From: a virus
IMG/VR virus record: IMGVR_UViG_3300033153_002788
Coordinates: 1-29,391 of that record
Strand: one strand, 5' to 3'
Length of the DNA stretch: 29,391 nt
How positions within the stretch are numbered: the stretch's first letter is position 1; every line of letters begins with the position of its first letter. The notes beneath the pieces were generated by a model that worked only from the letters and a program-made list of their open reading frames with translations, was not told the DNA's origin and made no database searches. Shown here piece after piece: positions 1,824 through 26,636 of this stretch. Made by a program: the position numbers and the translations under genes.

Positions 1824-2432
1824 ATGATTAAGGGTTTTAAAACATTTAACGAAGAATCAGAGTTAGCTACAGAAGTTAGCAATATGGTTGAATATTACGA
1901 ATTCAGTAATATGAATTTCGATACGTTAAATGAATCAGTATTATCAGAATTCAAGATGCCAGATATCTCAGGTGCTCTAGCTAGAGCCGGACTACACGCT
2001 AAGAAAGGTCGTGGTCTTATACAGATTATTGCTTCGTCAGGTATTCATTTTGCTAAGATCTTCCATGCTGCTATTAAAGCGTCAGGTGGTGATCAGGATG
2101 CAAAAGTTACTCTTAAAGACCTCCTATCAAAGAAAATAAAAAAAGAAGACATTATCGACTTCTTACTTAAATTAGATACAGCTACACTTCATTTAGTTAC
2201 TGGCCCAATCCATATGATTGAAGCTATAACAGGTTGGCATATTGGAGCTGCTGTTGCTAAAGTACGTAATACAGCTAAAGATATCTCTCAAAAAGGTAAG
2301 GATATCATAAATAAGTTAAAAGACGTTGCTACCGATTTAGAAGGTTCAGGTAAAAAATATATAGAGAAAGTTTCTAATTCAGTTGAGAAATTCTTTCTAC
2401 CACAAATAGATTCAAAATCAGTTAAGGTATAA
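1824..2432 (+). CDS. Late protein with variant capsid-targeting-like leader
   Basis: 202 residues. The start MIKGFKTFNEE resembles the capsid-targeting leaders elsewhere in the window with one extra residue, putting the putative cleavage Glu at position 11. The body is helical, with a Gly/Ala-rich stretch (about 50-80), a conserved-looking block TLHLVTGPIHMIEAITGWH (about 124-142) and a Lys-rich C-terminus. Expected role: virion or internal head protein, made late from the box at 1777. It is followed after 2 bases by the next gene. Family not identified. Confidence 0.65.
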   Translation: MIKGFKTFNEESELATEVSNMVEYYEFSNMNFDTLNESVLSEFKMPDISGALARAGLHAKKGRGLIQIIASSGIHFAKIFHAAIKASGGDQDAKVTLKDLLSKKIKKEDIIDFLLKLDTATLHLVTGPIHMIEAITGWHIGAAVAKVRNTAKDISQKGKDIINKLKDVATDLEGSGKKYIEKVSNSVEKFFLPQIDSKSVKV

Positions 2433-2434
2433 CA

Positions 2435-2659
2435 ATGAAAACAATCACCGAATATTTAAAAGAAGACGAAGTATTAGAAGAAGCTAAAGTACATCCACTC
2501 ATGGGTGATTTAGCTAAAGCTGTAAAATTAATTGATAAAGTTCGCCGTGGTAAAACTAAAATAGAAGACGATGTTATTCTAAATAAATTCAGAGACGATT
2601 GCGAAGCTACTCGTGATTATATAGAAGAAATGTTAGACTACGTTGAAGATTTAAAATAA
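2435..2659 (+). CDS. Small protein with T4-like capsid-targeting leader
   Basis: 74 residues. The leader MKTITEYLKE has Glu at residue 10 and an L-x-E cleavage pattern like T4 internal head proteins (MKTYQEFIAE). The rest is charged and helical; VHPLMGDLAK (about 19-28) resembles HPLMEKLSK in the protein at 21699-21956, suggesting the two are related. It is in the plus-strand late operon; its stop overlaps the next ATG by one base (TAATG). Candidate packaged, prohead-processed protein. Confidence 0.7.
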   Translation: MKTITEYLKEDEVLEEAKVHPLMGDLAKAVKLIDKVRRGKTKIEDDVILNKFRDDCEATRDYIEEMLDYVEDLK

Positions 2660-2940
2660 TGAAATCATTCAAAGACCATTTAGAAGAAGACGTATCAACA
2701 ACTACTGTTGGTGGTGCGAGTATCTTCACCCCAATCAAACCTACAGGTAAAGCTTTTGGATTAGACTTCTTTGAAGTAGATTGTGATAGCTTCGAAAAAT
2801 GTAGAACAAGTCCTAAAAAGAAATATAAACATTGGATGAAATTACTTAATAGTAAAGACATCCAACAATATGCTAAACAGACAAAAAGCTCTTTCCTTAT
2901 AAAACGACAAGGTAGTGAGGACTATTTGAGAGCACGTTAA
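2659..2940 (+). CDS. Small protein with T4-like capsid-targeting leader
   Basis: 93 residues. The leader MKSFKDHLEE puts Glu at residue 10 with L-x-E. The remainder has a Gly/Thr segment (TTTVGGASIFTP, about 15-26), a conserved-looking LDFFEVDCD (about 35-43), a Lys-rich middle (SPKKKYKHW) and a C-terminal strand region. Last gene of the plus-strand late operon, translationally coupled to its neighbour. Candidate internal head protein; function unknown. Confidence 0.7.
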   Translation: MKSFKDHLEEDVSTTTVGGASIFTPIKPTGKAFGLDFFEVDCDSFEKCRTSPKKKYKHWMKLLNSKDIQQYAKQTKSSFLIKRQGSEDYLRAR

Positions 2941-3274: not shown

Positions 3275-4678
3275 TTATACTTTAAAATCGTCAAATATAC
3301 CATCTTTTTTTGGGCTATCAAACATATCAGATTCAGATAAGTCTGTTCCAAAAGTAGGTTTCTCTTTCATATCATTCTGAGTTGTCATTGGTAAAGGTAC
3401 TTCCTCCTCCAAATCAAAGAATCTCATTTGTGAGAAATCCACACCCAACATTCCCTTACTATTTTGTGATATATCGCTAAATCTATTCTTTAATTGTTTT
3501 ACTAATATCTTTCCTTGTTCACGTAATTCTTCTGTAGAGATTAATCCAAATAAAGTATCCACGGTTGATACTAAGCCATACGACTCTGAAACATCACTCA
3601 TTTCAATATCGGATGCATTAATAGCACCACGATTAGATTGAGTTGCTGAGACGATAGGACAAACGTTCTCAGTAGCAAAACCGCGTAACTCTTCCGCTAT
3701 ACTCTTTACGATAGTATACGAGTTAGAACCAGATGGAGCACGAGTAGAAGCACAAATATTAATATAATCTATAAAGATAATATCAGGAACAAAATTCTTT
3801 TTAATTTTAAGTTCACGTATTAAATGTCTAAAGTGTCCAACATGAGCAGAAGCGGTAGGATATTCTTTAATAACAATATTACCCACTGTTCTATCTTTAA
3901 TACTATTAACTAAATCAACATACTTATCTTTCTCAGTTTTATTGACTTCGGATATACTCATCCTCAATAAATTCGAGTCAATACGTTCAGCAACACGTTC
4001 TTCTGATAATTCAAGCGTTATATATAAAACTTGCTTACCATTGAGCATAGCATTACAAGCATAGTTAATCAAGAATGCTGATTTACCACCACCTGAATGA
4101 GCCATGAATACATTTAGTGTTTTATCAGGTAACCCACCATTAGTAATTTTATCCATGTACTTAATACCAAATGGAATTCGTGATTCCTTACGGTGGAGAA
4201 AATCATGACGCTCACCAGCATCATTAATATATTCATGACCTACAGAGTTATCGAAAGAAACAGCAAGTGCATCTTGCAATAACTCAGGAATAGCACCTTT
4301 AGTATTATCCTCATCTTCACCAGAAATAATCTTGATAGAAGCTTGGATAGCATTAAATATAGCACGTTCAGAACAAAACTGTTCAGTACTATCTACTAAC
4401 CATTCATAATCAGATAAAACTTCTTCTTTATATGAAGTTACTCTTGCAATGATTTCATTATATTGATCTTGAGTTACATTTCCAATATGTTCAAGATCAA
4501 TGATAAAACTTTCTACAGTAGGCGATACATTGTATTTTGTGAAGAATTTATTATACTGTTTAAATATTAATTTATATGTACTATCAGTAAAATATTCTTT
4601 CTGTAGGTATGGTAAAACTGATCTAGCGTATTCGTCATTATTAAAAAGATTGTGGAATATTAAATCTTGTGTTTCCAA
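3275..4678 (-). CDS. 41: Replicative DNA helicase, T4 gp41 / DnaB family
   Basis: 467 residues, close to T4 gp41 (475). Hexameric 5'-3' helicase that unwinds DNA at the phage fork and, in T4, works with the gp61 primase. The N-terminal helical domain (1-120) is followed by a RecA-like motor: Walker A AHSGGGKS (193-200), a Glu in TLELSEE (about 223), Walker B IIFIDYI (300-306), SATQSNR (344-350) and KNRF (397-400), a candidate arginine finger. The C-terminus is acidic and low complexity (420-467), typical of a protein-contact tail. It is the third gene of a uvsX, small ORF, helicase unit in T4 gene order; the ATG at 4678 is 1 base from the upstream stop. Confidence 0.95.
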   Translation of the reverse strand: METQDLIFHNLFNNDEYARSVLPYLQKEYFTDSTYKLIFKQYNKFFTKYNVSPTVESFIIDLEHIGNVTQDQYNEIIARVTSYKEEVLSDYEWLVDSTEQFCSERAIFNAIQASIKIISGEDEDNTKGAIPELLQDALAVSFDNSVGHEYINDAGERHDFLHRKESRIPFGIKYMDKITNGGLPDKTLNVFMAHSGGGKSAFLINYACNAMLNGKQVLYITLELSEERVAERIDSNLLRMSISEVNKTEKDKYVDLVNSIKDRTVGNIVIKEYPTASAHVGHFRHLIRELKIKKNFVPDIIFIDYINICASTRAPSGSNSYTIVKSIAEELRGFATENVCPIVSATQSNRGAINASDIEMSDVSESYGLVSTVDTLFGLISTEELREQGKILVKQLKNRFSDISQNSKGMLGVDFSQMRFFDLEEEVPLPMTTQNDMKEKPTFGTDLSESDMFDSPKKDGIFDDFKV

Positions 4679-7041: not shown

Positions 7042-7716
7042 TTATTTAATACATATAAGAGCGATAAAATTATGAGATTGCCAGAAAGTTTCTACAGATG
7101 AGAAACCTATATCATAATAATAATTAATAATTTCATCAATATTTTTTAAATTCATCATTGTACGAAGACTCTTTTCTTTTTCAAAGATATCGTCATATGT
7201 GAAATGTTGATTCTTGTATTGGTAATACAGAGATGTTTTTATATCTTGCATACGAGCACAGTTAGAATAAACTTTTTCTGCACTTACAAATCCTGATCCA
7301 GGAATCATACTATTATACAATTCTTGAACCACTTTGTCACGAGTTTTTACATCTAAAAATTGCAATGTAAAAATATTCGTAGCGAAAGATACAATTTCAT
7401 CTTCTGGAAATGTGAAATTTTCTATATCATCCATAAAGAACTCAATATTAAAAGCACTATTATTATTCATATCATCTATAAAATTTTGTTCCTTTTCGAT
7501 ACCAGTATAATCCACTCCAACTAATGAAGACTTATCAGCCATACGTTTAAGTAGTTTTCCTGTTGAACATCCAATATCAATTACTTCTGTATTAGAACGA
7601 ATGAAATAATCACCCAAATTTTCAACGTCAGCGATTAAATCAGAATAACCGCGTATACTCTTACTAATATGATCATCAAAGTTTTTAACCGTGGCAAAAG
7701 AAAAATCATTATTCAT
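7042..7716 (-). CDS. CmoA-like carboxy-SAM synthase
   Basis: 224 residues from ATG 7716 (AGAAGG site just upstream; a longer frame to 7794 has no support). Class I SAM fold with motif I VIDIGCSTG (45-53). Similarity to E. coli CmoA by eye: FDDHISKSIRGYSDLI against FPDMIQRSVPGYSNII, NIFTLQFLD against LNFTLQFLEP, SAEKVYSN against LSEKFSFED, and FWQSHNFIALICIK against LWFQCFNFGSLVALK. CmoA makes carboxy-SAM from SAM and prephenate, normally for tRNA wobble cmo5U. E. coli Arg199, which I recall binding the carboxylate, aligns near K182/R185. It overlaps the upstream cytosine methyltransferase gene by 8 bases and no CmoB is present, so a DNA-modification role is inferred. A plain methyltransferase is the alternative. 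Confidence 0.75.
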   Translation of the reverse strand: MNNDFSFATVKNFDDHISKSIRGYSDLIADVENLGDYFIRSNTEVIDIGCSTGKLLKRMADKSSLVGVDYTGIEKEQNFIDDMNNNSAFNIEFFMDDIENFTFPEDEIVSFATNIFTLQFLDVKTRDKVVQELYNSMIPGSGFVSAEKVYSNCARMQDIKTSLYYQYKNQHFTYDDIFEKEKSLRTMMNLKNIDEIINYYYDIGFSSVETFWQSHNFIALICIK

Positions 7717-8929
7717 TTTGTAATACCTTCTCATATATATTTTTACAAAGGTACTGATACATTGGTGGTGAAACCATTCTACCAATACGCTCATACTTTT
7801 GGTTTGAATTACCTGTTAATTTATAATCTTCTGGTAATCCCATTAAGCGTATAGCTTCTTGTATACTTAATGGTCTTTTAGTATCAGGTAATATAAAGCA
7901 ACCGTTCTGTAATCCCTTCTGAGTTAACGTAGGAGATGGTTTATTATTAGATAATACATAATAATTAAAATATTTTCTTGTATCAAGAACATCACAGAGT
8001 AAGTATGCTTTATCCTTTTCCGTTTTTTGCTTAATAATAATCTTATCAATAATAGGAGAGAATCCTTTAAAATAATTTGTATTGATAAGATTATTCATCC
8101 ATTCTTCTTCCTCATGTTGGTAAACATCTTCTATATCACCAATCACTGATTTTATAGATGTCTCTATGGAGAATGGTTCAGGATAAATGTGAGCAATATT
8201 AAATTGATTGATATGTTTAGCTTCCGCAATATCATCTCTTATCGCTAAAAAAATAACTCGTCTACGGTTTTGAGCTACACCATAATCAGATGAATTCAAT
8301 ATACTATAGGTAACTAAGTATCCAATCTTCTCAAACTCGTTAAGAATTTTATTTAGGTATTTTTTACTTTCACCAGCAGTTAAACCAACAACGTTTTCTG
8401 CGATAATAACTTTAGGTTGTATATCATTAGCTATACGGATAAATTCAAAAAATAAATCTTCTATATTCTCAACAGTTTTACCATCAGAATATTTCTTCGT
8501 TTTATTCCAACCCATCTTTTCATCAACGGTTTGTACTTCACACGAATCGAAATAATCATCACCATCATCAAATAACGAAACAGGTTTATCTTCTTTCTTC
8601 TTATTCTGTACAACAGCACCACATAATGAGAAAGCAGAACATGGAGGACTACCTTCAAGTAGATCTAGTTCACCTTTTTTGATATTAGCTTTATCTAAGA
8701 AATCTTGACCTGTTAGATCTTTAATGTCACCCAAGATAACAGGGGTATCGAAATTATCCCTGTATGTGGATACAGCTTCCTCTACGAACTCATTAGCAAC
8801 TAGAGTATTACCACCTGCTAACTTAATTCCAATAGTAGATCCACCACCACCTGAGAAAGTTGAAATGTGAGTAAATAGTTTTTTATTAGATTGTTCTAGG
8901 ACATCTTCTAAGTAATAAGGTTCGTACAT
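7709..8929 (-). CDS. DNA (cytosine-5) methyltransferase family, copy 2, with GRM motif X
   Basis: 406 residues. C5-MTase motifs in order: I (FSGGGGS, 25-31), IV with the catalytic Cys (GSPPCSAFS, Cys97), VI (AENV, 177-180), VIII (QNRRRVIF, 220-227), IX (RPLSIQEAIRLMGLP, about 352-366) and X (ERIGRMVSPP, 380-389). The usual motif X is GNS or GNA; here it is G-R-M, replacing the conserved Asn that lies near the SAM amino-acid end. It is very similar to the adjacent copy except in the block around residues 250-320, the target-recognition region, so the two probably recognise different sites. The start overlaps the copy 1 stop (TAATG) and the end overlaps the CmoA-like gene. Confidence 0.93.
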   Translation of the reverse strand: MYEPYYLEDVLEQSNKKLFTHISTFSGGGGSTIGIKLAGGNTLVANEFVEEAVSTYRDNFDTPVILGDIKDLTGQDFLDKANIKKGELDLLEGSPPCSAFSLCGAVVQNKKKEDKPVSLFDDGDDYFDSCEVQTVDEKMGWNKTKKYSDGKTVENIEDLFFEFIRIANDIQPKVIIAENVVGLTAGESKKYLNKILNEFEKIGYLVTYSILNSSDYGVAQNRRRVIFLAIRDDIAEAKHINQFNIAHIYPEPFSIETSIKSVIGDIEDVYQHEEEEWMNNLINTNYFKGFSPIIDKIIIKQKTEKDKAYLLCDVLDTRKYFNYYVLSNNKPSPTLTQKGLQNGCFILPDTKRPLSIQEAIRLMGLPEDYKLTGNSNQKYERIGRMVSPPMYQYLCKNIYEKVLQNE

Positions 8930-10149
8930 TATTTTAATATTGTCTCATAAATGTTTTTACATAATTGTTCATATATAGGAGGGGTTACCATTCTACCAAG
9001 ACGCTCGAATTTTTGATTTGGAGTACCTGTTAGTTTATAGTCTTCTGGCAATCCCATCAAACGTACAGCTTCTTGAATGCTTAATGGACGTTTACCACTA
9101 GGATGAATAAAGTTAGCAGATTGTAATCCAACTTGAGTTAACGTTGGAGCGTGTTTACTCATAGATAAAACATAATAACTAAAGTATTTATTACCACCAG
9201 GAATTACAGAAGAGAATTTATGAAAGTTATCATCAGTCTTTTGTATTTCTACTATATCACTAATAAAGGTTACTGTGTTTTGATACGTCTTACGACCCAT
9301 CAAATGCTTCATCCATCTTTGTTCGCCATGTTTCCATACTTCACCGTATTGCATTGTACCAATTACATCTCGTAATGTCAAAGGTTTTGAAATTTGATCA
9401 GGGTAAATATGAGCAAGATTAAATTGGTTAATATGTTTAGCTTCCGCAATATCATTACGTATAGCAAGAAAAATAACACGCTTACGAGATTGAGCTACAC
9501 CATAATCAAGTGAGTTAACAACTTTATATGTAACAATATATCCTATATTATCAAACTCATTGAGAATTTTATTTAGGTATTTTTTACTTTCACCAATAGT
9601 TAAGCCAGCTACGTTCTCAGCTATAATAACTTTAGGTTGAATATCGTTAGCTACACGAATAAATTCGAAGAATAGATCTTCTATATTTTCTACTTGTTTA
9701 CCATCAGAATAAGTTTTGGTTTTATTCCAACCCATCTTTTCTTCAATACTTTTAGATTCTACTTCTACAAAATATTCTTCTGTGTCATCAAACAGAGATA
9801 CAGGTTTAGTGTCATCTTTATTATAAGTTACACTACCACATACAGAGAACGCAGAACATGGTGGACTACCTTCAAGTAAATCGAGTTCACCTTTCTTAAT
9901 GCCAGCTTTATCTAAGAAATCTTGACCTGTTAGATCTTTAATGTCACCCAATATAACATTGGAGTTATTAAAGTTATCTTTATAAGTCCTTACAGCTTCT
10001 TCAACAAATTCATTAACTAATAGGGTATCACCGCCTGCTAGTTTAACACCAACAGAAGATCCACCACCACCAGTAAATGTTGAGATATGTGTAAAAAGTT
10101 TTTTATTAGATTGTTCTAGAACGTCTTTTAAATAATATTTTCGATACAT
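8929..10149 (-). CDS. DNA (cytosine-5) methyltransferase family, copy 1, with GRM motif X
   Basis: 406 residues from ATG 10149, chosen because it aligns with the start of copy 2 (MYRKYYLKDVLEQSNKK against MYEPYYLEDVLEQSNKK); a TTG 15 bases upstream is less likely. Motifs: I (FTGGGGS, 25-31), IV (GSPPCSAFS, Cys98), VI (AENV), VIII (QSRKRVIF, 220-227), IX (RPLSIQEAVRLMGLP) and X (ERLGRMVTPP, Arg386 in place of the usual Asn). Transfers a one-carbon group, or on the hypothesis below a carboxymethyl group, to cytosine C5 in DNA. No restriction endonuclease is adjacent, so the role would be protection of phage DNA. Starts 2 bases before the GroES-like stop. Confidence 0.93.
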   Translation of the reverse strand: MYRKYYLKDVLEQSNKKLFTHISTFTGGGGSSVGVKLAGGDTLLVNEFVEEAVRTYKDNFNNSNVILGDIKDLTGQDFLDKAGIKKGELDLLEGSPPCSAFSVCGSVTYNKDDTKPVSLFDDTEEYFVEVESKSIEEKMGWNKTKTYSDGKQVENIEDLFFEFIRVANDIQPKVIIAENVAGLTIGESKKYLNKILNEFDNIGYIVTYKVVNSLDYGVAQSRKRVIFLAIRNDIAEAKHINQFNLAHIYPDQISKPLTLRDVIGTMQYGEVWKHGEQRWMKHLMGRKTYQNTVTFISDIVEIQKTDDNFHKFSSVIPGGNKYFSYYVLSMSKHAPTLTQVGLQSANFIHPSGKRPLSIQEAVRLMGLPEDYKLTGTPNQKFERLGRMVTPPIYEQLCKNIYETILK

Positions 10150-10150
10150 A

Positions 10151-10429
10151 TTACTCGTCAACAAAACCCATTAACGCTTTTTCACCGATCATACGGTAAG
10201 TCTTACCATCAAGTACAAATGGAGTAGAAGCATTATACATAAATACAACCTTCATACCATTTTCAACACCTGTTTCCATTGCTACGCAAGAAGAAAGAAC
10301 AGTACCAACAGCAGGGTATTTCTTGGATGTATCTTCACCCATATAGATACCACCTTCAGATAATTCAGATGGATCTTGTGTAACTATATCAGTTAGTAGA
10401 ACGAAACCGTTCAACATTTTCATTGCCAT
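10151..10429 (-). CDS. GroES/gp31-like co-chaperonin
   Basis: 92 residues, close to GroES (97) and shorter than T4 gp31 (111). Beta-barrel pattern of the family: MLNGFVLLTDIV at the start, a mobile-loop-like segment with GGIYM (about 26-30), GTVLSSC, NGMKVVFMYNASTPFVLDGKTYRMI and a terminal LMGFVDE. It would cap the host GroEL ring and, by analogy with T4 gp31, allow folding of the major capsid protein. Assignment rests on fold-like pattern and length, not on strong identity. The upstream 66-residue gene stops 3 bases before it. Confidence 0.75.
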   Translation of the reverse strand: MAMKMLNGFVLLTDIVTQDPSELSEGGIYMGEDTSKKYPAVGTVLSSCVAMETGVENGMKVVFMYNASTPFVLDGKTYRMIGEKALMGFVDE

Positions 10430-21228: not shown

Positions 21229-21444
21229 TTATAATTCACCAAACATGATATCAAGAATATCATCTAATAGATTTCCTTTGATTTTAAGTTTCTTTAGAAT
21301 TTTTACAGCTTTATCTTCAGCACCATCATTTAACGCAGAAGCTAATTTTTTACCTTCCACACCATCCATTGCATCATCAAGAGCTTTCTCAGCTTTCTTG
21401 ACACGAGCACTAGCTTCTACAACAAACTCTTTATATCTTTTCAT
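21229..21444 (-). CDS. Small protein with T4-like capsid-targeting leader
   Basis: 71 residues. The leader MKRYKEFVVE, followed by Ala, has Glu at residue 10 with V-x-E and is close to MKTYQEFIAE|A of T4 internal proteins. The body is a single Lys/Asp-rich helical domain (VKKAEKALDDAMDG, KAVKILKKLKIKGNLL). Candidate packaged protein; the predicted mature part is about 61 residues. Overlaps the upstream gene by ATGA. Confidence 0.7.
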   Translation of the reverse strand: MKRYKEFVVEASARVKKAEKALDDAMDGVEGKKLASALNDGAEDKAVKILKKLKIKGNLLDDILDIMFGEL

Positions 21445-21698
21445 TTAAGTTCCTTAAATATATCATCAATTTCACGAGCGACAACTTGACCTTTTTTACC
21501 TTTAATATTAATAACCCATAAGTCATTATCATCTAAAGAAAAATCTCCAATAGTCTTACCTTTTTTATTAATTTTATGAACTCCACCATTACCACGTACT
21601 AATGTGATACTCCCAGATGTCAATTCCTTTTTACCACTCATCCATTTATCAGCTAGTGGGTATTTAGATTCTCTTAAAAATTCTTTTATTGATTTCAT
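21441..21698 (-). CDS. Small protein with T4-like capsid-targeting leader
   Basis: 85 residues. Leader MKSIKEFLRE (Glu10, L-x-E). The body is beta-rich and basic: YPLADKWMSGKK, SITLVRGNGGVHKINKKGK, GDFSLDDNDLWVINIKGKKG and a C-terminal helix. Looks like a small folded domain rather than a core scaffold. Function unknown. It begins right after the preceding stop. Confidence 0.7.
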   Translation of the reverse strand: MKSIKEFLRESKYPLADKWMSGKKELTSGSITLVRGNGGVHKINKKGKTIGDFSLDDNDLWVINIKGKKGQVVAREIDDIFKELK

Positions 21699-21956
21699 TT
21701 ACTTTATTCTCTGTATAGCCATTTTTAGAGTTCCAAGAACTTCTGATTCCACTTTCTCTAAATTTACATCAGACATTTCCCAATCTTTAAGCTCTAATTG
21801 AATAGCTTTATCAACAACACCCGAACCTTTTAATAACTTAGCAATTGCTTCTTTTGCAACTTTTAAAGTATCTACATATGCTTTCTTTTCAACTTTACTT
21901 AATTTTTCCATTAGAGGATGACTGTCTTCTTCTAAAAATTCTGTTAATGATTTCAT
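21699..21956 (-). CDS. Small protein with T4-like capsid-targeting leader
   Basis: 85 residues. Leader MKSLTEFLEE (Glu10, L-x-E). SHPLMEKLSKVEKKAYVD follows, related by eye to HPLMGDLAKAV in the plus-strand protein at 2435-2659. The rest is helical (DTLKVAKEAIAKLLKGSG). Candidate packaged protein; its tie to the late-strand paralogue links the two sites of this family. Confidence 0.7.
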   Translation of the reverse strand: MKSLTEFLEEDSHPLMEKLSKVEKKAYVDTLKVAKEAIAKLLKGSGVVDKAIQLELKDWEMSDVNLEKVESEVLGTLKMAIQRIK

Positions 21957-22183
21957 TTTGAACTTAATTCCTTATTGAATAAACCTTTAAATTTTGAATC
22001 TCTTGCTTGAGCAATATGAACAATATATGCGTTACCATCTTTACCACGATATAATCCAACAAGACCATCTGTAGTTTGTGTTACAGCGATACGCTTCTCG
22101 AAGAACTTACCAATAATACCACTCATTGCTTGAACGAGTTGGGCTGGTCGAGCTTCTGATATTAATTCTTTTATTGATTTCAT
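21953..22183 (-). CDS. Small protein with T4-like capsid-targeting leader
   Basis: 76 residues. Leader MKSIKELISE, followed by Ala, is an I-S-E|A cleavage site very close to T4 I-A-E|A. The body has a helix (QLVQAMSGIIGKFFEKRI) then a small beta domain (VTQTTDGLVGLYRGKDGNAY). Basic overall. Function unknown. Confidence 0.7.
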   Translation of the reverse strand: MKSIKELISEARPAQLVQAMSGIIGKFFEKRIAVTQTTDGLVGLYRGKDGNAYIVHIAQARDSKFKGLFNKELSSK

Positions 22184-22494
22184 GATATATACATGTTTAA
22201 TTCGTATCTACCAGTGGCAGTTCGCTTGCTACTACCTATACCATACACTTGAAAGTGTACAGCTTTTCTTTGTTCTTTATCACCTTTATACAATTTTAAT
22301 GTATAACGATTTGTTTTACCATCAGAAGGCTTTTTCGGGCCAGTACTTACAGTATCAAATACTTCATCATCATCAACTTCAAATCCGTTTTTCTTTACGA
22401 AAGCTAACATTTCTGTGATAGCAGAGGTTAATGTATTATGATAAATGGTATAATCTTTCTTACCTTCTTTTAAAAATTCTTGTACTGTTTTCAT
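22180..22494 (-). CDS. Small protein with T4-like capsid-targeting leader
   Basis: 104 residues. Leader MKTVQEFLKE, followed by Gly. The body begins YTIYHNTLTSAITEMLAFVK, then an acidic DDDEVFDTV, RYTLKLYKGDKEQRKAVHFQ and an end strand YELNMYIS. The pattern YHNTxTSA...G...R..L...K..RKA..F.VY recurs, from memory, in marine T4-like phages without known function. A compact alpha/beta domain is expected after leader removal. Confidence 0.7.
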   Translation of the reverse strand: MKTVQEFLKEGKKDYTIYHNTLTSAITEMLAFVKKNGFEVDDDEVFDTVSTGPKKPSDGKTNRYTLKLYKGDKEQRKAVHFQVYGIGSSKRTATGRYELNMYIS

Positions 22495-22501
22495 TTTATT
22501 C

Positions 22502-22855
22502 CTAATTATGGTATTTATTAATTACATCATCTATATTAATTATTTTTTTATTAATATCTTCAACATCTTTTTTAACTTTACCATTACAATCCTTATTTAT
22601 TACTATAATTCTAGGTTTAACTTTAGAATTAGTTTTTTCTACAGTACTTTTCTTTGGAGGATTGTAATAAGGTTTCATTTCTTCAATCTGTTTCTTTAGT
22701 ACAACATTTTCTGATGTAACATCTTGCTTATCAAAATAATGCCACCCACCAGTAGAGATTCCACTAAAGGTAATAATAATCATAACGATTAATTTCCAAT
22801 AATCTCTTACTACGTCAGGAAGCTTTGTAATTATTTCCCATTTATCAGTAGCCAT
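22502..22855 (-). CDS. Single-pass membrane protein
   Basis: 117 residues: cytoplasmic N-terminus (MATDKWEIITKLPDVVRDYW), membrane segment about 21-41 (KLIVMIIITFSGISTGGWHYF), then a Lys-rich, Pro-containing extracytoplasmic part (PYYNPPKKS) and a C-terminal helix. The start overlaps the stop of the secreted YadA-like protein by one base (TAATG), so the pair is cotranslated and may form an envelope complex. Confidence 0.65.
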   Translation of the reverse strand: MATDKWEIITKLPDVVRDYWKLIVMIIITFSGISTGGWHYFDKQDVTSENVVLKKQIEEMKPYYNPPKKSTVEKTNSKVKPRIIVINKDCNGKVKKDVEDINKKIINIDDVINKYHN

Positions 22856-23223
22856 TAGAATCTCTTAACCCCACCGACAGAGACCATTTCATCATCATCC
22901 CCATCTTGTTTAGTAACTGAGAAAGTAAGTAGTACATCTTTATATCTTTGACATAAACTAAGAGCTATAGCTGTTTTAGATTTATGATTACTCATACCAA
23001 AACCACCCTGTAAACTATAAGTATCCCATTCACAGTTAGTAGCATGAGCTACAGCACCGGCCATAGCCATACTTACATCGTCTGTAGATTCTATAATATT
23101 TGTTATATTGTTATAGTTAATAGTATCATTATGATCATGATCATTATGGTCATCACCATTAGCCATTGAACTAGTACAAATAGCAAACATAAGTATAAAA
23201 CCAATAAATATTTTTTTTATCAT
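22855..23223 (-). CDS. Secreted protein with YadA-anchor-like C-terminus
   Basis: 122 residues from ATG 23223 (AAAGGGA site; upstream frame extension to 23295 shadows the neighbour). Signal peptide MIKKIFIGFILMFAICTSSMA. A His/Asp-rich segment follows (NGDDHNDHDHND, a likely metal binder). The C-terminal half, VSMAMAGAVAHATNCEWD then LQGGFGMSNHKSKTAIALS, VLLTFSVTKQ and MVSVGGVKRF, resembles the trimeric YadA outer-membrane anchor (G-x-S-A-x-A-x-G ... GxGxxxxF). It could trimerise in the host outer membrane during infection. Two Cys are unusual for that fold. Confidence 0.6.
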   Translation of the reverse strand: MIKKIFIGFILMFAICTSSMANGDDHNDHDHNDTINYNNITNIIESTDDVSMAMAGAVAHATNCEWDTYSLQGGFGMSNHKSKTAIALSLCQRYKDVLLTFSVTKQDGDDDEMVSVGGVKRF

Positions 23224-23236
23224 ATCTAATATCCCT

Positions 23237-23494
23237 TTATTTATTACGAGTCTGTTTATCCATAACTTTAGCAAGCTCACGAGGTTTAAGACCAACCTGT
23301 TCTGCTGCTTTCACCAATGCGAAAGACGCAGAAATATTCCCACGCTTTAAAATTTCTTTTTGTATTTTAAGAGCTTCTTTATATTGATTCTTATGAAGAA
23401 TACGCTTGAGAAAATGTAGTAATTTTTTAGGAAGAATATCTTTAGTAAGAGAAGTTATCATAGCTTCTTCATTAAATTCAATAAACGTCTTCAT
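23237..23494 (-). CDS. Small protein with T4-like capsid-targeting leader
   Basis: 85 residues. Leader MKTFIEFNEE, followed by Ala (Glu10; Asn at the -3 position instead of Leu/Ile). The body is strongly basic and helical (KKLLHFLKRILHKNQYKEAL, ALVKAAEQVGLKPRELAKV), which suits an internal DNA-associated protein. Last capsid-leader gene before the first secreted/membrane pair. Confidence 0.68.
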   Translation of the reverse strand: MKTFIEFNEEAMITSLTKDILPKKLLHFLKRILHKNQYKEALKIQKEILKRGNISASFALVKAAEQVGLKPRELAKVMDKQTRNK

Positions 23495-23781
23495 TAATAA
23501 TTCTCAGTATGTTTAATTCTAGCTCGACTATCTTTATCAGAGTAATCTATAGAAAGCTTTTGAATCTTGGAAGATTTATCGTTATTTGTAACGCGCTTAA
23601 TTACTAATTTTGATTCTAATGCTTTTTTTATATCTTCACTGGTTTTGTCGCCAGCGTAGTGTTTAATCATTTTTTTGCCTTGAGGCTTTTTCATGATAGC
23701 ATCCATAAAATCATTGATTATTTTTTCAGAAGATTCGTATAATTCCTTCTTCTCTTCATTAAATTCAACAAAGGACTTCAT
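23494..23781 (-). CDS. Small protein with T4-like capsid-targeting leader
   Basis: 95 residues. Leader MKSFVEFNEE (Glu10), nearly the same as the next gene downstream. The body: an acidic helix, IINDFMDAIMKKPQGKKMIK, TSEDIKKALESKLVIKRVTN and a basic end. Basic overall. The one-base overlap with both neighbours makes translation coupled. Function unknown. Confidence 0.68.
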   Translation of the reverse strand: MKSFVEFNEEKKELYESSEKIINDFMDAIMKKPQGKKMIKHYAGDKTSEDIKKALESKLVIKRVTNNDKSSKIQKLSIDYSDKDSRARIKHTENY

Positions 23782-24074
23782 TAGTTACTCAGATCTTTTA
23801 TTTTAAAAATAGCTTTACTTGAAAATGGTACTAATCGTTTACCAGATAAACCTATTCCAATTATAGCATTATCTTTAGTGATTAATTTTAACATTAATTT
23901 ATCATCTTTATCACCAAGAAACCAGCCAGTGACTTTTTTCATGATTTCAGGTAAATCTTCTTGTAATTTATCATATAAATCACCAAATGTTTTAGTACCG
24001 TAAACTTTGGTCAAAAAAGGATTAGATGTACTTCCTTGAGTTCTTTCTGATAGATATTGGTCTACTGATTTCAT
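23781..24074 (-). CDS. Small protein with T4-like capsid-targeting leader
   Basis: 97 residues. Leader MKSVDQYLSE (Glu10, L-x-E). Then SNPFLTKVYGTKTFGDLYDK, IMKKVTGWFLGDKDDKLMLK and a C-terminal beta region (NAIIGIGLSGKRLVPFSSKA). Probably a small alpha/beta domain. Function unknown. Coupled by overlap to both neighbours. Confidence 0.7.
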   Translation of the reverse strand: MKSVDQYLSERTQGSTSNPFLTKVYGTKTFGDLYDKLQEDLPEIMKKVTGWFLGDKDDKLMLKLITKDNAIIGIGLSGKRLVPFSSKAIFKIKDLSN

Positions 24075-24367
24075 TTTATAGCACTCTTTAAAAAGTCAAC
24101 TGCTTTTTTAACACCTTTTGGATTACCTACAGCACCCATACGTATCATATTAGCAATTTTATTATCTATACCAGCGCGTCCATCTCGTATGAATTGATTC
24201 CATACTCTCTGAACTTCTAAATTATTACTTTTTAAAAAATCTTTAATGGCTGATACACGTACACCTGTTTGAACACCAAATTCAGCCAATGCTGAATCTA
24301 CAGAGAGTAGTCCAACTTTAGGTTTCAAAAATTTAACTTCATCTAAAAATTCGTCTACTGATTTCAT
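24071..24367 (-). CDS. Small protein with T4-like capsid-targeting leader
   Basis: 98 residues. Leader MKSVDEFLDE (Glu10, L-x-E). The body is helical with VDSALAEFGVQTGVRVSAIK, then LEVQRVWNQFIRDGRAGIDN and KGVKKAVDFLKSAIK; helix-turn-helix character is possible. First gene of the cluster in transcription order, with promoter-like sequence just upstream. Function unknown. Confidence 0.7.
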   Translation of the reverse strand: MKSVDEFLDEVKFLKPKVGLLSVDSALAEFGVQTGVRVSAIKDFLKSNNLEVQRVWNQFIRDGRAGIDNKIANMIRMGAVGNPKGVKKAVDFLKSAIK

Positions 24368-25798: not shown

Positions 25799-26485
25799 TT
25801 ATTTTGACCATATTTTGTCCATATTTCCACGTAATATAGTTTTTAATTTAAAAGATTTTCCTAATATATGATCTGTAATCCTATCGTCTTGAAATCTATA
25901 GGTACGTATTTTATCACCCCGCATACCACTACCAACCATAGATGAACGATTCTCATTACGCTTTGAATGTTGTTCATTATGAGTTTTATCATCAAGTATT
26001 TTATTGACGGCATTCTTAGCATCAATTTTATTTTTATTTTGGGAACGACTATCCCTTTCTTGTTTAATACCTGTAGGAAGATGTATACACTTTATAGCGG
26101 ATAGCGTTTTATTTTTCTTTTGGCCGCCAGCACCAGTAGACTTAAATAATTCAAAACGATAATGTTTATCATCTCGTAAATTATATTTAGACTGAGAAGA
26201 ATAATTACCATCTAATACAGCAACAGTCACAGTAGATGTATGTACACGACCTTTAGTTTCCGTTGGAGGAATTCTTTGTATACGGTGACCACCTGATTCG
26301 TTTTTTAAACAATCAAGTTTATTACCAATTATTTCTATTGATATATAGCCAGAACGTTGGCTAAGACGCGTAGACTTTCAGCCTAGCTTGAGGAATGTTT
26401 TTTCGTAAGCGATAGCAAGATCATTTACAAATAGTTTTGAATCGTCTCCACCTTCGGCAGCTCGGATTTCCATTATACGTTTCAT
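25799..26485 (-). CDS. Phage class I peptide release factor (RF1-type) interrupted by an in-frame UGA
   Basis: 228 codons from ATG 26485 (AGGAG site) to TAA, counting one in-frame TGA at codon 36 (26378-26380). The frame is the same on both sides: MEIRAAEGGDDSKLFVNDLA ... FLKLG-TGA-KSTRLSQRSGYISIEI, then ESGGHRIQRIPPT (63-75) with PPT at the RF1 PxT codon-recognition site, and GGQ (120-122) for peptidyl-tRNA hydrolysis. The TGA stands where RF1 proteins have Trp in xxWxVE. RF1 domain 1 is missing, as in other short phage or ribosome-rescue-type factors. Full product needs readthrough; otherwise the gene is dead. UGA is a true stop elsewhere in the window. Confidence 0.8.
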
Positions 26486-26495
26486 TGTGGTTCTC

Positions 26496-26636
26496 CTACT
26501 TTTTATATTTGTCAATCAAGTGTTTAATAGCAAGGTAAGATCTTAAATCTATTTGCATTATTTTTATTACCCTTGGGTTTCTTTCTGTTTTTAATAACTC
26601 TTTTAATAAATTAATCGTTTGATTAATCTCAAAAAT
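26496..26636 (-). CDS. Possible small basic protein with ATT start
   Basis: An open frame of 46 residues (FEINQTINLLKELLKTERN, then VIKIMQIDLRSYLAIKHLID and KYKK) between the 46-residue ORF and the release factor. No ATG/GTG/TTG start lies at its beginning; ATT 26636 sits 10 bases after AGGTG. Amphipathic, lysine-rich, phage-like composition. An internal ATG would leave only 20 residues. Reported as tentative. Confidence 0.35.
   Translation of the reverse strand: MFEINQTINLLKELLKTERNPRVIKIMQIDLRSYLAIKHLIDKYKK

Follow-up and report, generated by a model that had tools for sequence, protein, structure and literature searches.

The described systems closest to the gene reported here are the autoregulation of bacterial release factor 2 (RF2) and the eRF1 of mimiviruses. 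A phage protein made from a leaky UGA is also familiar from the coat gene of Q-beta, where the codon is read through by Trp-tRNA; the readthrough product is a structural extension protein and not a termination factor, so that no feedback is possible. In a survey of prfB, the RF2 gene, UAG was found in 0 of 8,164 frameshift motifs, and prfA, the RF1 gene, was without programmed frameshift (PMC12421855). A self-sensing in-frame stop has long been thought possible in release factor genes and was reported as unknown for those of bacterial type: the 2016 review by Atkins and colleagues lists no RF2 gene with an in-frame UGA bypassed by readthrough, gives the UAG counterpart in RF1 genes as unknown and names a giant virus as the sole release factor case (PMC5009743). 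Gene lists of huge phages include RF1 and RF2, with recoding in them unmentioned in the accessible text of Al-Shayeb and colleagues (PMC7162821). In the open-licence literature we found no prior description of the phage release factor family treated below, although absence there is not proof.

The window, by which we mean the whole stretch of viral DNA analyzed (29,391 nucleotides; IMG/VR record IMGVR_UViG_3300033153_002788), carries a release factor gene on its minus strand (Table 1). From 26485 to 25799 the frame spans 228 codons, and TGA at codon 36 is its sole interruption. A preliminary description of this DNA had claimed a UGA at a conserved Trp position with the reading frame unchanged on both sides, and both parts of the claim held. 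Codon 35 is GGC and the frame is the same before and after the stop, so that the gene does not have the CUU UGA +1 frameshift site of prfB. The codon-36 column holds Trp in the two bacterial RF1 sequences used here (L013, QGWRIEV; L016, QGWKAEV) and in the solved RF1 structures 1zbt and 2fvo. The in-frame TGA is confirmed as real and conserved.

Table 1. The release factor gene of the window and its parts, in window positions.
Feature	Position	Strand	Remark
RF1-type class I release factor gene without domain 1	25799..26485	minus	228 codons, TAA end; in-frame UGA must be decoded
In-frame TGA, codon 36, at the RF1 Trp position	26378..26380	minus	context CTA GGC TGA AAG TCT
Codons 1-35, domain 2 strand and helix	26381..26485	minus	35-residue product if ribosomes stop at UGA
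AGGAG before ATG, likely Shine-Dalgarno sequence of the release factor gene	26493..26497	minus	sequence
P-P-T tripeptide, codons 73-75, RF1-type stop-codon recognition motif	26261..26269	minus	3' of UGA
GGQ, codons 120-122, peptide-release catalytic motif	26120..26128	minus	3' of UGA

Read with Trp at codon 36, the product matched PCRF (PF03462) over residues 4-88 and RF-1 (PF00472) over residues 105-206, both above cut-off. NCBIfam scores were 212 bits for RF1, 100 for RF2 and 54.5 for PrfH, and a PrfH identity was rejected given the TIGR03072 cut-off of 166.65. The RF1 match begins at profile position 107 and stays below the equivalog cut-off of 400, the protein consisting of domains 2-4 only, without the domain 1 of a full-length factor. 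The higher score for RF1 than for RF2, together with PPT at residues 73-75, bears out the earlier assignment to an RF1-type factor, and the predicted model (pLDDT 85.5) has ribosome-bound RF1 as its top fold match (TM 0.82). Nearly all relatives have PPT or PPN as the tripeptide and RF1-like residues or Gln at the Q181- and H193-like positions, and GGQ is kept in 156 of 156 non-redundant relatives taken from best-80 listings and from huge phages. From P-P-T and its RF1-like neighbours the phage factor is predicted to read UAA and UAG; release activity of a factor lacking domain 1 is putative. Separately, the P-x-T loop is seemingly deleted or altered in L062, L255, L011, L257 and L258, suggesting changed stop recognition in these members.

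Whether homologues carry TGG or TGA at codon 36, a check that the preliminary description had proposed, was determined in IMG/VR searches, each covering the 80 best among 184-318 relatives. Since codon 36 is no part of the search patterns, a relative with TGG there would not have been missed. Codon 36 was TGA in 75 of 75 newly fetched loci of the window's clade in one best-80 search, and TGA, never TGG, in 69 of 69 distinct sequences of that clade in a further one. Synonymous codons nearby are mixed (D15, GAT 32 and GAC 31; Y27, TAC 32 and TAT 31) on a protein tree that spans 23 substitutions per site. The closest relatives, L104 and L105 (71-72% identical), share the same 15 bases with the window around the stop, CTAGGCTGAAAGTCT, while other synonymous sites are near saturation. 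On this comparative evidence, UGA in the window's clade is under selection as UGA. Furthermore, the base after UGA in 68 readthrough genes was A (53), G (9) or C (6) and never T, whereas T follows 62 of the 207 ordinary TGA stops in these phages; these counts are phylogenetically non-independent, and 5 of the 68 genes have the stop a few codons from column 36. In one study, U at this +4 position is linked to reduced readthrough (PMC5289835). Where computable, dN/dS was 0.02-0.18 on both sides of the stop, which indicates that both are under purifying selection. A conserved in-frame stop with coding constraint on either side is the mark of programmed readthrough, and the window's gene has both. 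No conserved RNA structure was found 3' of the UGA: single folds vary, and 21 aligned sequences gave no consensus.

Dereplication at 90% identity of the best-80 listings and of short RF1-like genes of huge phages, in which the same in-frame stop oddity was seen first, gave 156 genes, mostly from jumbo phages. Among these listed matches, 151 need recoding near the same place and five (L017, L049, L064, L244 and L248) have no control stop. In 90 of the 156, one or more in-frame stops lie at or near codons 36, 43 or 51 (overall span 36-52), nearly always UGA, with UAG in three; in 61, an RF2-like +1 frameshift site is found at codon 37, consisting of a GGAGG-like element, CUU (CTT in 60 of 60) and then UGA, UAG (nine) or UAA (two). 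The second readthrough position of the huge-phage clade is UAG rather than UGA in L043-L045 (codon 52) and L029 (codon 50). Phage-collection matches labelled Listeria, Staphylococcus or Bacteriophage sp. were left out, those opened being bacterial-type full-length release factor genes. The tree placed the phage family as one clade beside bacterial RF1 and apart from RF2. Readthrough and frameshift types cluster on this tree yet exchange several times, and UAG and UAA control stops sit on scattered tips of one clade in which UGA predominates. In one relative, from a Hahella MAG (L316, 4001-4690), codon 36 reads TGG and, in place of the in-frame stop, a CTT-TAG frameshift site lies at codon 42, beyond which the +1 frame stays open through the rest of the factor; this natural exchange points to Trp as residue 36 and to a single control stop as the feature that is kept. 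Both the conservation across dozens of divergent phages and the sister genes with an RF2-like frameshift at the adjacent codon thus give strong support to readthrough, as first proposed, rather than decay. Together, the sequence comparisons establish the stop, its conservation, an intact protein selected on both sides of it and its exchange with frameshift sites.

Members of the family also occur in bacterial assemblies. Readthrough-type genes were found in Thalassospira, Jiella and a Rhodospirillales MAG, copies that may be phage or prophage sequence, and frameshift-type genes in Myxococcota, among which Nannocystis species share a conserved chromosomal neighbourhood. In Nannocystis (L346-L349, L351 and L352, about 4001-4664) it is a third release factor gene with an RF2-like +1 site, in addition to full-length RF1 and RF2, whose presence was confirmed in the three genomes examined for them; near the frameshift site, L349 departs from the others. 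The chromosomal copy L347 belongs to a cultured organism, Nannocystis exedens DSM 71. Phages had exactly one RF-1-domain gene in 19 of 19 records checked, with no second release factor gene. A search for a close phage relative of the window by PhoH or by near-identity DNA found none, and the short release factor loci of relatives contained none of the window neighbours PhoH, UvsX and ThyX; the release factor gene seems, on this slight evidence, to travel independently of them. Elsewhere in the window, small proteins that begin alike (MKS/MKT...EFLxE) form arrays at 21229-24367 (minus) and 1824-2940 (plus), which we take to resemble the internal head proteins of T4-type phages, with their prohead protease site, and two adjacent paralogous proteins at 7709-10164 (minus) resemble C5 cytosine DNA methyltransferases.

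We infer that programmed readthrough of the UGA, with Trp inserted, makes the phage RF1-type factor in the cell and that the UGA serves as a sensor of termination capacity, a reading to which we assign a probability of about 0.78. Because the stop lies in the gene's own reading frame, the factor could be made only if ribosomes fail to stop. Most ribosomes reaching codon 36 would be expected to terminate and release the short peptide, whereas slow termination would let near-cognate Trp-tRNA read the UGA and yield the full-length factor. The tRNA-Trp(CCA) carried by most of the sampled phages, described below, is also in favour of this reading. The codon would then act like the UGA of prfB, through in-frame readthrough rather than a frameshift; given the lack of conserved RNA structure after it, readthrough efficiency may be modest. 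Given the RF1-like recognition motif, the loop would most likely be indirect: phage RF1 would take over UAA, which makes up 61% of stops in readthrough-type phages, host RF2 would thereby be freed for UGA, and further readthrough would fall. Synthesis would in this way respond to the host RF2 level, as the preliminary description had suggested. A factor of RF1 type would not be expected to read UGA; either the loop is indirect, then, or the specificity differs from that implied by the motif.

The latter option, that an omnipotent factor or one of shifted specificity also reads UGA and directly limits its own synthesis as RF2 does, is possible but in our estimate doubtful. If the factor itself is the sensor, reading all three stops would explain why stops exchange freely, UAG (nine frameshift and three readthrough representatives) and UAA (two frameshift representatives) replacing UGA in the family, in contrast to prfB, which is without UAG in 8,164 genomes (PMC12421855). 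The few members without the P-x-T loop (L062, L255 and L011) point the same way. However, the near-universal PPT or PPN, the RF1-like residues or Gln at the Q181- and H193-like positions and the grouping of the family with RF1, not RF2, all argue against it. The broader proposal, of a widespread family in phages and some Myxococcota that would read UGA, UAA and UAG and control itself via the stop in its own mRNA, with readthrough and +1 frameshift interchangeable, is likewise possible but doubtful.

Rather unlikely, to our judgement, is a temporal switch in which the supply of phage tRNA-Trp sets readthrough, so that the factor is made late, once phage tRNAs have built up and not before, and no release factor feedback is involved. 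Such a switch would fit the 31-59 tRNA matches found in each of 11 phage records, of 12 searched, and the tRNA-Trp(CCA) present in 7 of the 8 phages with sampled tRNA clusters, twice in two of them. It leaves the sister clade unexplained, since an RF2-like frameshift at the adjacent codon needs no tRNA-Trp, and the release factor of G003, the twelfth record, has the UGA although no tRNA was found there (the record may be incomplete). No suppressor tRNA with a UCA anticodon was seen in the sampled clusters, which cover part of the phages' tRNAs. CUA-anticodon, amber-reading tRNAs were seen in jumbo phages with the phage release factor (L293, 7272-7345 and 7953-8024; L295, 8294-8367; L302, 18386-18473), and ARAGORN labels them Pyl.

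That the UGA encodes selenocysteine, as UGA can, or that translation restarts 3' of the stop, for which codon 86 offers a GTG, is very improbable, and both were rejected for the window's gene. The 21 aligned sequences have no conserved (bSECIS-type) hairpin after the UGA and bacterial RF1 has Trp at this column, while a start at GTG86 would leave out the P-P-T motif and would not fit the selection on codons 1-35.

Barely credible is a genome-wide reassignment of UGA to Trp in the phages or their hosts, to which the UGA at a Trp position might otherwise point. That UGA is an ordinary stop elsewhere, as the preliminary description held, was evident in the window, where TGA closes 13 of 64 genes, most via ATGA overlaps, and where the genes contain 103 TGG codons and a mid-frame TGA is absent from every other real gene. 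It was equally evident in the 50-kb stretches around the short RF1-like genes of huge phages and in the relatives' loci, where TGA closes 464 of 1313 long flanking ORFs and is followed by a long extension in the same frame no more often (31/464) than TAG is (22/241). Code 4, with UGA as a sense codon across genes, is rejected by this stop usage. Finally, a pseudogene or sequencing error at codon 36, with nothing in its favour beyond the stop itself, has a negligible probability and is ruled out by the TGA in dozens of independent assemblies, the purifying selection on both sides and the invariable GGQ.

Predicted readthrough is the rule in this jumbo-phage release factor family, beside a sister clade with a frameshift version, and the family lets one ask how one type of recoding gives way to another, what makes UAG acceptable here when prfB does without it, and which benefit phages would draw from tying release factor supply to termination capacity. 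Standard annotation will tend to call such genes truncated or broken. Compared with bacterial RF1, the window's factor has the same domains 2-4, P-x-T, GGQ, fold and a UGA at the Trp position, but it lacks domain 1 and requires recoding, whereas prfA has no programmed frameshift (PMC12421855). With prfB, in which a +1 frameshift at CUU UGA C is aided by an internal Shine-Dalgarno sequence, it shares a class I release factor product and an early stop in the mRNA that has to be bypassed, and the sister clade has a like site (GGAGG, three bases, CUU, stop); the window's gene differs in its unchanged frame, RF1-type product and missing domain 1, and the phage family in its additional use of UAG, found in none of the 8,164 prfB motifs (PMC12421855). 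Mimivirus R726 and Megavirus mg280 likewise encode a viral class I release factor with UGA readthrough, for which Trp was proposed, and a CUU-stop frameshift (Jeudy 2012, PMC3521657). Theirs, however, is an eRF1-type factor of an unrelated protein family in a eukaryotic host, with both events in one gene, whereas in the phages readthrough and frameshift are mostly alternatives within one bacterial-type family.
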